Part shown: piece after piece, positions 22,407 through 55,958 of the stretch | Position numbering within the stretch: position 1 is the first letter of the stretch | How the letters are laid out: each line of letters opens with the position of its first letter | NCBI GenBank assembly: GCA_947167765.1 | Contig: CAMVJI010000001.1 | Location: 52,795-116,794, forward strand | From: an uncultured Butyrivibrio sp. | GTDB taxonomy: Bacteria > Bacillota > Clostridia > Lachnospirales > Lachnospiraceae | DNA length: 64,000 nucleotides | Direction of reading: 5' to 3' | The notes under the pieces: generated by a model | The model's input: the letters and a program-made list of their open reading frames with translations, nothing else | Told to the model about the DNA's origin: nothing | Databases searched by the model: none | Program-made: the position numbers and the translations under genes

Positions 22407-22463
22407 GCGAGCGAAGCGAGAGCGGAACTTCCTTGCGAGCGAAGTAAGATCGGAACTTCCTTG
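22407..22463 (+). repeat. Two tandem copies of a 28-bp GC-rich unit, CGAGCGAAGYRAGAKCGGAACTTCCTTG
   Basis: GCGAGCGAAGCGAGAGCGGAACTTCCTTG followed by GCGAGCGAAGTAAGATCGGAACTTCCTTG. Confidence 0.85.
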
Positions 22464-28019: not shown

Positions 28020-28175
28020 GTGGCCCCAGGCAAAAACTTTATTTTTTGCGAGTTTTAAGCCACGGAGACGAGACCTATCAATCTCAAGTGCCATTGCACG
28101 CAGAGATTGATGCTCAGGGCTCATCGGAGTGCTCGGCTTAAAGGAGCAAAAAAGAAAGTTTTTGCCTGGGGCCAC
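28020..28175 (+). ncRNA. Element A: candidate structured RNA, long hairpin with conserved core
   Basis: Perfect 21-bp outer arms GTGGCCCCAGGCAAAAACTTT/AAAGTTTTTGCCTGGGGCCAC; core shared with element B at 44870-45058 and base-pair covariation in inner helices. Confidence 0.75.
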
Positions 28176-44811: not shown

Positions 44812-44869
44812 AACACTATATTTGCCCATAAAGAAAATATAGTATACAATATTTATGGTATTGGGACTA

Positions 44870-45058
44870 CCTGTCCGGTCCGACGGCTGGCGCAGCAAAT
44901 ATGCGCAAGCTTTTGTGGCTTTTAAACCACGAAGTCGAGACCAATGGATCAGGAGTGCCAATGCACGAGTGATCCATGCTCTGGGCTCGATGGAGTGCTT
45001 GGTTTAACAGCTACAAAAATTGCGCATATTTGCTGCGCCAGCCGTCGGACCGGACAGG
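44870..45058 (+). ncRNA. Element B: candidate structured RNA, second copy
   Basis: Perfect 39-bp arms CCTGTCCGGTCCGACGGCTGGCGCAGCAAATATGCGCAA and its reverse complement; core shared with element A. Confidence 0.78.
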
Positions 45059-45082: not shown

Positions 45083-46489
45083 GTGATAAAGGATAATCAG
45101 GTACATTTGAATAGGGCACACGTCATAGTGGACGGGCTACTTGTAGCTGGTTCTTATGCGTTGTCTTATTATCTTAAATTTGAATCCATATTTGCTGATA
45201 AAGTGCCAGTTGGACGTCTTTCTATGGAGGTCTATTTTTCGGCACTTTATTTTTTGGTGCCTGCATATCTTTTTCTGTACTACATGGTCCAGCTCTACAC
45301 CTCAAGAAGAGCATTGCGCCTGTGGAATGAATTTGTAGACATAGTCCAGGCCAATGTCATGGGTGTAATTGGGTTCCTGGTTGTTTTGTATTTGATACAC
45401 CAGTCCAACTTTTCCCGAAAGATGATATTCATCTTTTTCATAACGAATATTACCCTGACCACCATTGCCCACTGGCTGCTTCGCAAGTTCCTGCGCTTTA
45501 TCAGGAAAAAGGGCTACAACATCAAGCATATTTTGCTGGTGGGATATTCAAGGGCTGCAGAGGCTTATATTTCAAGGATTCTTGAAAACCCTCAGTGGGG
45601 ATATGAGATTGCAGGCGTATTGGACGACTTTGTTCCGATTGATACCAAGTATCACGGCATCAAGGTTATTGGCAAGATCGACGAGCTCAATAACTACCTT
45701 GAAAATAATAACTACGACGAGATTACCATCACTCTTCCGCTGGATGATTACGACAGGTTGGAGGTGCTGGTTGCAGAGTGCGAAAAGTCCGGCGTCCACA
45801 CCAAGTTCATTCCGGACTACTCATCTCTTTTCCCAAGTAATCCATACACAGAGGACGTTCAGGGTATTCCCGTCATTAACATCAGATACGTGCCCCTTAC
45901 CAATTCAATGAACAAGCTGGCTAAGAGGATCGTGGATATAGTGGGATCTCTTTTCGCCATCATCCTGTTCTCGCCTATCATGCTGATTGCGGCCATTGCC
46001 ATCAAGGCCACCAGCGAGGGACCTATCATCTACAAACAGGAGCGCATCGGCCTGAACGGCGTTCCTTTCAATATGTACAAGTTCAGGACCATGAAGATCC
46101 AGAGCGAGGCTGAGGAAAAGAAAGGCTGGACCACCAAGGGGGATCCAAGAGTTACAAAGATTGGCGGCTTTCTTCGTAAGACCAGCATCGATGAGATGCC
46201 TCAGTTCTTCAATATTTTCATTGGCCAGATGAGCCTTGTGGGACCACGTCCTGAGAGGCCTCAGTTTGTTGAGAAGTTTAAAGAGCAGATTCCAAGGTAT
46301 ATGGTCAAGCACCAGGTTCGTCCTGGGCTTACCGGATGGGCGCAGATCAATGGATATCGTGGGGATACATCCATCAGAAAGCGCATAGATTATGATATTT
46401 ACTACATTGAGAACTGGAGCATGGTCTTTGACTTTAAGATAATGCTTGGAACTATCAGGCATGGCTTCATTAATAAGAATGCATATTGA
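45083..46489 (+). CDS. Undecaprenyl-phosphate sugar phosphotransferase (WcaJ/CpsE-like)
   Basis: RIVDIVGSLFAIILFSPIMLIAAIAIK, YKQERIGLNGVPFNMYKFRTM, LVGPRPERPQFVEKF, RPGLTGWAQINGYRG; GTG start preferred over the TTG inside the hairpin. Confidence 0.93.
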   Translation: MIKDNQVHLNRAHVIVDGLLVAGSYALSYYLKFESIFADKVPVGRLSMEVYFSALYFLVPAYLFLYYMVQLYTSRRALRLWNEFVDIVQANVMGVIGFLVVLYLIHQSNFSRKMIFIFFITNITLTTIAHWLLRKFLRFIRKKGYNIKHILLVGYSRAAEAYISRILENPQWGYEIAGVLDDFVPIDTKYHGIKVIGKIDELNNYLENNNYDEITITLPLDDYDRLEVLVAECEKSGVHTKFIPDYSSLFPSNPYTEDVQGIPVINIRYVPLTNSMNKLAKRIVDIVGSLFAIILFSPIMLIAAIAIKATSEGPIIYKQERIGLNGVPFNMYKFRTMKIQSEAEEKKGWTTKGDPRVTKIGGFLRKTSIDEMPQFFNIFIGQMSLVGPRPERPQFVEKFKEQIPRYMVKHQVRPGLTGWAQINGYRGDTSIRKRIDYDIYYIENWSMVFDFKIMLGTIRHGFINKNAY

Positions 46490-53523: not shown

Positions 53524-53546
53524 GCGATGCTCAAGCGTGTTTTTTC
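53513..53546 (+). terminator. murA terminator overlapping the stop codon
   Basis: ACACGCCTGAGC-GAT-GCTCAAGCGTGT then TTTTT. Confidence 0.85.
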
Positions 53547-53677
53547 ATGACACAGTGACGGTTCTGCTGACAAGACACGGGGACGCAAGACACGGGGACG
53601 GTTCTCTTGACTCATTGTATGCAATAAGTCAAGAGAACCGTCCCCGTGTCTTGTCAGCAGAACCGTCGCTGTGTCAT
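53547..53677. repeat. Long REP/BIME-like palindrome of GACACGGGGACGGTTCT type
   Basis: Left arm ATGACACAGTGACGGTTCTGCTGACAAGACACGGGGACG(CAAGACACGGGGACG)GTTCTCTTGACT, right arm near-perfect reverse complement. Confidence 0.9.
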
Positions 53678-54763
53678 TTAAATGATCTCCTGGATGTAGA
53701 CTCCAGGGCACTTGCTAAGATCTATGTAGTCGTTGTCCACCTTGATGGTGGGCTTGCTCAGGGCGTTACTGTTTATGAAGATGATCTCGCCGATTTCGCC
53801 GGTGTTAAGGCGGACTGTGTTGCGAAGATATGTGTTTACGATGTTGTGAAGGAAAGCCAGAATCATCTCAGGGTCGTAGCGCTGGAAACCCTCGTCCTCA
53901 AACATAGATATTGCAATGAATGGACATAAGGGACCGCGGTAGTATCTGGCACTTGTCATGGCGTCGTATACATCTGCGATGGCTACGGCCTTGGCAAATT
54001 TATCGATCTGAGGACCTCTGAGTTTGAGAGGATATCCTGTTCCGTCGCATCTTTCGTGGTGCATGAGAGCGGCATTTTTTACGTGGGAGCTTATATTTAG
54101 TTCCCTCATGGCATCATAGCCCTTCTGGGGATGAGTTTTTATAACTGCGTATTCTTCATCGTTAAGAGGGCCTGGCTTGGTTATGATGGAACCTGGGATC
54201 AGGAGTTTACCTATGTCGTGGAAAAGACCTGCCTGAGTGGCAAGCTCTATCTCAGAAGGATCCCACCTGAGCCACTGGGCAAGGATATTGGTAATGAGAG
54301 CCACGTTAATACAGTGAGTGTAGGTGGCATCATCATAAAGCCTTAGGTTATGGAGCATGTCAAAAATATTGGAAGCAGTTCTTCCCTGACCGAGAAGCGA
54401 ATAGATAGGGGTCATCATTTCATCGATATCAAGCTCCTTGTTACCGTGAATGAGGTCCTGGATGGTGTGCTCATATCTGCTGGCACAGGCTTCGAAGTCT
54501 GCCTTGAACTCCTTGAAATCCTCTGACTGCTTAAGACGCTCAGAATAAGTAAGCCCTGTGTCGACAGGACTACTGCTTGCTGCGCTCTCCACAGGTGTAT
54601 CCTCGATGAGAACATCGATGACTGAGTAAAAAGCGAGTCTTGCGATATCTTTTTCGTTAAGAACACAGCCCTTGTCTAAAAGGCGCAGGTTGGAATCTGC
54701 GGAAAAGACATCGTTAGCCAGTTTCATGCCTGGCAGAAGTTTTTTAGTAAGCACCCTCTTCAT
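53678..54763 (-). CDS. HD-GYP domain phosphodiesterase
   Basis: HDIGKLLIPGSIITKPGPLNDEEY, HHERCDGTGYPLKLRG, IADVYDAMTSARYY. Confidence 0.93.
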   Translation of the reverse strand: MKRVLTKKLLPGMKLANDVFSADSNLRLLDKGCVLNEKDIARLAFYSVIDVLIEDTPVESAASSSPVDTGLTYSERLKQSEDFKEFKADFEACASRYEHTIQDLIHGNKELDIDEMMTPIYSLLGQGRTASNIFDMLHNLRLYDDATYTHCINVALITNILAQWLRWDPSEIELATQAGLFHDIGKLLIPGSIITKPGPLNDEEYAVIKTHPQKGYDAMRELNISSHVKNAALMHHERCDGTGYPLKLRGPQIDKFAKAVAIADVYDAMTSARYYRGPLCPFIAISMFEDEGFQRYDPEMILAFLHNIVNTYLRNTVRLNTGEIGEIIFINSNALSKPTIKVDNDYIDLSKCPGVYIQEII

Positions 54764-54857: not shown

Positions 54858-54875
54858 CATGATTGCATAAAATAA

Positions 54876-54991
54876 ATTCTTCGGGGCAGGGTTAGATTCC
54901 CAACCGGCGGTAGAGTCCGCGACCCGCTTTATTCAAGGCGGCTGATCTGGTGAGATTCCAGAACCGACAGTATAGTCTGGATGAGAGAAGG
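54876..54991 (+). ncRNA. FMN riboswitch (RFN element)
   Basis: TTCTTCGGGGCAGGGT...ATTCCCAACCGGCGGTAGAGTCCGCGA...GGTGAGATTCCAGAACCGACAGTATAGTCTGGATGAGAGAAGG. Confidence 0.97.
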
Positions 54992-55092
54992 AGTGCAGAG
55001 CAGCAGGTGAGTTTTTTTCGAGCCGCTGCGAGCCTGTCATTTTCACTTAACGAGGTTCTTTCGAGTTTAGTGAAGAATGACTACATTGTGAG

Positions 55093-55178: not shown

Positions 55179-55958
55179 ATGAACAATCTACAAAAGACAC
55201 TAGAAACAATCGCAAGCAGTACCTACCACTTTGTGGCCCTTATCCTGCTCATAGTCATTGCATTTGTCATTGGCTATGTGGCTGAGGCAATCGCCAGAAA
55301 GAAAGAGATCAGGGAAACCGGAACATCTGAGCCTATGTTCAGCACAAGGAAGATTGCCATCATCGGCGTATTCTCAGCAATCGCATTTGTACTTATGCTG
55401 TTTGAGTTCCCGCTTCCATTTGCACCATCTTTTTACAAGTTTGATTTCAGCGATATGCCAGCCCTTATCGGTGGTTTCGCTGCAGGCCCAATGGTGGGCG
55501 TTATGATCGAGTTCATCAAGGTGACTCTTAACATCCTTATCCAGGGACCTACTCCAGGATTTGTTGGCGAAATTGCTAACTTCGTTGTTGGCGCAGCCTT
55601 CATCATTCCTGCAACAGTCATCTACAGATTTAAAAAGAGCAGAAAGTCAGCTCTTATCAGCTGCCTTGTAGGAACAGCCTGCATCATGATCGTTGGATCA
55701 ACCTTAAATGCATTCTTCCTGCTTCCTGCATATGCAATAGCATACGGTGTAGACATTGATTTCTTCGTTGCAGCTGGAGCAGAGATCAATCCAGCTATCA
55801 GCAATATATTCACCTTCTGCGCACTTGCAGTTGCACCATTTAACCTCCTTAAGGGAGTGGCAGACAGCGCACTTACATTCCTTGTTTACAAGCAGCTCAG
55901 CCCAATCCTCAAGGGCGGCGTAAGCAGCGTCCGCAAGGCAGCAGTATCAGAGCAGTAA
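55179..55958 (+). CDS. ribU: Riboflavin ECF transporter S component
   Basis: KIAIIGVFSAIAFVLMLFEFPLPFAPSFYKFDFSDMPALIGGFAAGPMVGVMIEFIKVTLN; downstream of the FMN riboswitch. Confidence 0.93.
   Translation: MNNLQKTLETIASSTYHFVALILLIVIAFVIGYVAEAIARKKEIRETGTSEPMFSTRKIAIIGVFSAIAFVLMLFEFPLPFAPSFYKFDFSDMPALIGGFAAGPMVGVMIEFIKVTLNILIQGPTPGFVGEIANFVVGAAFIIPATVIYRFKKSRKSALISCLVGTACIMIVGSTLNAFFLLPAYAIAYGVDIDFFVAAGAEINPAISNIFTFCALAVAPFNLLKGVADSALTFLVYKQLSPILKGGVSSVRKAAVSEQ

Follow-up and report, generated by a model that had tools for sequence, protein, structure and literature searches.

A dispersed palindromic repeat family of Lachnospiraceae with a conserved core and nearly sequence-free, complementary arms

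ERIC/IRU, Correia/NEMIS and related MITE-like repeats have been reviewed (PMC2229807). They are intergenic, multi-copy and non-coding, measure 100–200 bp, contain no transposase, occur in untranslated regions (UTRs), and have transcripts predicted as long stem-loops (PMC2229807). The palindromic family described here shares these traits. It differs in that the terminal inverted repeats of those families follow a consensus, whereas here the conserved part is the core and arm sequence is nearly free. It also differs in its Lachnospiraceae range; neither TA ends nor, in the diverged flanks compared, a target duplication was seen. As in MITE-like repeats, the elements are of suitable size, non-coding and dispersed, and they are present or absent at one and the same site among relatives. 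Conserved terminal inverted repeats are lacking; the arms vary, and an ACA/GTC foot is found in 14 of 116 copies.

The bcr1–bcr18 repeats of the Bacillus cereus group (PMC3446304) are likewise interspersed Firmicute repeats, some MITE-like and others with a conserved RNA structure in UTRs. Sequence-free, co-changing arms are absent from their description in PMC3446304, the comparison being one of descriptions. Rickettsia palindromic elements and the CGTC and GTAG REPs are also palindromic, often form inverted dimers, lie mostly beside or downstream of genes with few inside them, and in some cases bear a CGTC-like terminal tag (PMC3733652). However, REPs are 20–40 bp long, and GTAG REPs go with RAYT transposases (PMC3733652), which do not track the present family. 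The elements described here are much longer than a GTAG/CGTC-tagged REP or REPIN palindrome and lack an association with Y1 transposases, although they do form inverted dimers in one preferred arrangement. Only a minority of copies bear a tag, of the form ...C/GTC (the slash marks the arm end), which sits at the core strand's 3' foot.

The MRSC-65-2 motif, judged to be selfish and possibly active as DNA, resembles the family in its covarying long stem, its many copies per genome and its inconsistent gene orientation (PMC11109978). By its description, MRSC-65-2 occurs in diverse phyla and has a UYCCGG repeat (PMC11109978), whereas matches to the present family were confined to Lachnospiraceae and its conserved core is larger. 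Compared with cis-regulatory leaders, the elements have a covarying structure but no fixed orientation upstream of one gene function. Judged by these comparisons, the family appears to work like the ERIC, RPE, NEMIS and bcr repeats, yet to fit no named family.

Elements A and B in the window

The window, the whole 64,000-nucleotide stretch analysed, contains two copies, designated elements A and B. Their features and those of the gene next to element B are as follows.

28020..28040, + strand: element A 5' arm, 21 nt, perfect
28044..28151, + strand: element A core; cmsearch 117.2 bits
28155..28175, + strand: element A 3' arm, 21 nt, perfect
44822..44850, + strand: sigma-70-type promoter of the WcaJ-like gene, TTGCCC-17-TACAAT, read directly; kept in genomes G022, G075 and G002
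44870..44908, + strand: element B 5' arm, 39 nt, exact reverse complement of the 3' arm
44911..45018, + strand: element B conserved core with inner arms, model R1 positions 1–109; cmsearch 109.5 bits; family-wide covariation
45020..45058, + strand: element B 3' arm, 39 nt, exact reverse complement of the 5' arm
45083..46489, + strand: WcaJ-like undecaprenyl-phosphate sugar transferase gene, GTG start; Pfam Bac_transf 4.7e-72, CoA_binding_3

The arms of element B match at 39 of 39 positions, as the earlier note on this DNA had read them, and a repeat finder reports an inverted repeat of 44 nt at 95%. The strand folds at −140 kcal/mol with a z-score of −18.9 against dinucleotide shuffles, which places the hairpin far beyond chance. 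The promoter is present as claimed, with TTGCCC at 44822–44827, TACAAT at 44845–44850 and a 17-nt spacer. The GTG start lies at 45083, 24 nt past the end of element B, and is kept in relatives. The earlier note had correctly placed element B directly 3' of a real promoter and 5' of the WcaJ-like start codon. This position puts the element in the expected 5' UTR of the WcaJ-like mRNA, and it is probably transcribed there, between promoter and ribosome-binding site. The promoter itself is part of the host gene and lies outside element B.

A core shared by elements A and B had also been proposed. One covariance model, built from an alignment that holds both, scores the two cores strongly, at 117 and 110 bits, and the two are copies of one element. 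The arms of A and B look unrelated, as claimed, but this does not extend to the family, in which many arms appear to be of common descent, with an outer AAAGTCCGGCTCGG-like and a middle GGCAAAATGCACAATA-like pattern.

Three other features were seen in the window. An unrelated nested palindrome (53542–53682) with repeated GACACGGGGACGGTTCT units, which looks REP-type, lies downstream of a murA-like gene. An FMN riboswitch (54873–54996, 116 bits) precedes a transporter-like gene at 55179, and a 28-nt GCGAGCGAAGCGAGAGCGGAACTTCCTT unit is present in two tandem copies at 22407–22462.

Distribution, insertion sites and neighbouring genes

Element B belongs to a dispersed repeat family of gut and rumen Lachnospiraceae and is not a gene-specific leader. 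Family members are about 160–230 nt long, with a core of about 85–110 nt. A BLAST search of 61 genomes with the B core returned copies confined to the same genus, and a pattern scan of named genomes returned 46 stretches, nearly all Butyrivibrio-labelled. Covariance model R1, made from 21 cores, detected the family in 45 of 79 Butyrivibrio genomes, with 1–30 copies each among the matches listed; G081 has 30 copies and G086 has 22. With the broader model R2, 21 of 334 sampled Lachnospiraceae genera, the source genus included, proved to carry the element, in a patchy distribution, and no match came from outside Lachnospiraceae in a phylum sample of 399 genomes. The R2 searches used stricter filters, by which weak matches are lost, and the genomes are unequal in completeness, which makes absences uncertain. 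Short variants of about 70–75 nt, in which the core has no terminal hairpin, were also observed (L118, L235, L221:31-100, L222 and L230).

The family has apparently not been described before. Rfam 15 contained no family for A or B at gathering or permissive thresholds, the sole match to element B being a chance-like long-stem miRNA below the cut-off, and none for loci from other genera. Phages, plasmids and viral contigs gave no match, the viral scan consisting of one exact degenerate pattern. No paper on such a repeat in Butyrivibrio or Lachnospiraceae was found in a literature search whose coverage left out most subscription journals.

Sites occupied in some genomes are empty or partly filled in others. 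In G022, G075 and G002, the promoter at the B site runs straight into the gene through a nearly identical short sequence. Element B is present in two species, G000 and G006, in the same orientation, and is best read as an insertion in their lineage. An origin of the arms from the insertion site was rejected, the empty B site containing no arm-like sequence. Site A is full in G000 and G022, retains the 3' half in G075 and is empty in G006. At another site, G004 and G031 have the full element, G003 a core-less version, G082 a fragment and G067 none. At a third, G000 has only an outer hairpin of 20-odd bp, and G022 and G006 have the whole element. In one pair of copies (L155 in G022 and L160 in G006), the element and its 3' flank are about 99% identical and the 5' flank about 80%, a pattern that suggests recombination between lineages.

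The end signature, ACA directly before the 5' arm and GTC directly after the 3' arm, is exact in the 14 copies mentioned above, against a mean of 0.38 for other non-complementary triplet pairs; the excess is large, but the test is partly circular, as the motif was spotted by viewing the ends first. Most copies, A and B among them, lack the exact signature. No target-site duplication was seen, but flanks at the sites compared are too diverged to show one clearly, and the insertion ends are placed only approximately.

Simple ORF calls placed the genes flanking 121 elements in ++ (35), −− (44), convergent (25) and divergent (6) arrangements. The 3' foot tends to lie near a gene edge, in either direction, and the 5' side is looser. 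In 12 of 12 close inverted pairs, the elements point outward. Neither a promoter upstream nor a terminator downstream of the elements was enriched over shuffles or controls. A search of 116 neighbours for a common or parent-element gene found none; they are ordinary genes of no common class. One pair of copies about 0.7 kb apart (L130, G083:C68) lies beside or inside a probable radical-SAM methylthiotransferase gene and may represent an in-gene insertion.

A Y1/RAYT transposase was considered as mobiliser and rejected: the element-rich genomes G081 and G086 have no Y1_Tnp match, and G061, G062 and G012 have several Y1_Tnp genes and no element. Tracking of Y1 across genomes and inspection of neighbouring genes identified no mobilising enzyme.

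These observations bear on the proposal that element B is a cis-acting leader RNA regulating the WcaJ-like gene, for example through a core-bound protein or ligand or through RNase III cleavage of the long stem. Its place between a conserved promoter and a start codon, its strongly conserved core structure and its persistence in two species, G000 and G006, all agree with such a role. Most copies, however, are not leaders, the nearest 3' gene running towards the element in 69 of 121 cases; flanking genes occur in every orientation and share no function, and in relatives that lack the element the promoter and gene are the same. A function tied to the WcaJ-like gene, as the earlier note had supposed, is not borne out, and regulation of that gene by element B is unlikely.

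Conserved core and co-changing arms

Pairing is maintained in evolution, in arms and core alike. Among 67 distinct cores, two-sided changes occur at 27 of 31 pairs and 98.4% of cells are paired, and none of 500 shuffles scored as high; fitting the core alignment to the structure works in favour of this result, and the related sequences are not independent, which makes p-values too small. Cross-genus cores show two-sided changes at 24 of 27 pairs. Conservation extends to the internal loops of the core: GAGAC/GGCTC, which contains an A-G mismatch, GGA/GGA, and, at the foot, GCGA/GAGC. G-U is much more frequent than A-C on the core strand, at 40:5, or 15:4 when two helix-end pairs are left out. 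The bias has the same direction, in small numbers, in copies antisense to both neighbours. Since the excess of G-U holds whatever the gene orientation, it points to constraint on one fixed strand, whether in RNA or in single-stranded DNA form.

Between orthologous sites, core change was 0–9% in closer pairs, against 10–52% at third codon positions of flanking genes, and arm change ranged from 3% to 44%. For one site, two comparisons over greater distances yielded core changes of 20% and 36%. In a comparison that takes in only copies still detectable, the rate of core change is usually several-fold below that of third codon positions, and the arms change far faster than the core.

Arm complementarity might come from selection for RNA pairing via compensatory mutations, with no copying mechanism. 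Pairing is indeed kept across very divergent arms, and in the first arm set G-T slightly exceeded A-C on the + strand (75:51). Over 116–117 long-armed copies, however, G-T mismatches (132) are about as frequent as A-C mismatches (115; p 0.31), unlike in the core, and single changes in the arms of ortholog pairs comprise 8 G-U and 11 A-C; neither set has a G-U preference. In the same pairs, 52 two-sided changes were observed against 8 expected if the sides changed independently, and 20 of 42 two-sided changes that keep Watson-Crick pairing, or about half, are transversions. Moreover, an RNA should hardly be affected by a single mismatch in a stem of 39 bp, yet the stem is perfect. Pairing selection without copying is accordingly given a low probability.

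Changes of whole blocks were also found. The G000 and G022 copies at site A differ by a block that changed in both arms and includes a matched 2-nt indel. At site B, the segment that forms the GCGA...GAGC loop in G006 is paired in G000, which amounts to several changes in two short blocks. Such matched two-sided and block changes are predicted by arm-to-arm copying and not by compensation through G-U intermediates. Template switching has been reported to create and maintain hairpins (PMC8794818), and the arm pattern agrees better with template switching at the hairpin, on the level of DNA, than with selection on RNA. Because arm pairing bears this mark of copying, a compensatory-mutation test of the arms is weaker than it appears. 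In several copies (L128, L137, L139, L045 and L129), mostly of G066, the 5' flank and the start of the 5' arm are tandemly duplicated directly upstream.

The paralogs of G436 provide a counterpoint. Their cores are up to 94% identical over the exact core length and their arms do not align, which could also mean that the core alone moves and that every insertion acquires fresh arms, either from an existing palindrome or from an inverted copy of the flank. Against this, the arms of many Butyrivibrio copies look mutually related, no arm-like sequence precedes insertion at the B site, and arms at fixed sites diverge fast enough to saturate while the core barely changes. Movement of the core alone is unlikely. 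An invertible DNA switch, suggested by perfect inverted repeats adjoining a surface-polysaccharide gene, is very improbable, as the promoter lies outside the repeats, the G006 ortholog has the same orientation, and like elements lie beside unrelated housekeeping genes.

A probable mobile element with a core under selection

The preferred reading, to which we assign a probability of about 0.7, is a mobile palindromic family of Lachnospiraceae with a selected core and arms matched by template copying. Each copy consists of a structured core, conserved in sequence and structure on one strand, between nearly sequence-free but mutually complementary arms. In this reading, copies move to new sites as discrete units and then decay by deletion, as the empty, partial and filled sites show. 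When single-stranded, the hairpin may allow replication to template one arm from the other, and both would then change together, in keeping with the substitution pattern. At fixed sites, the slow change of the core points to purifying selection. The core is probably kept because a protein binds its + strand form, be it RNA or single-stranded DNA.

A bolder and more tentative possibility is that the core represents a novel structured module, of RNA or single-stranded DNA, to which a dedicated protein partner belongs. The mobile element that carries it would then be of a new type: sequence would matter in the core alone, and replication would keep rewriting the arms onto each other, giving a perfect stem without sequence conservation.

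Studies of RNA and genome evolution still ask how long perfect stems survive sequence change, and template switching has been proposed as an answer. The family offers many natural replicates within one bacterial family, each combining fast paired arms and a slow core in one molecule, together with full, partial and empty sites, and is a natural test case for arm-to-arm palindrome copying in bacteria. Since the repeat is structured and dispersed in Lachnospiraceae, such hairpins should not be taken as gene-specific riboregulators. The family adds an apparently undescribed structured repeat to this major group of gut and rumen bacteria.
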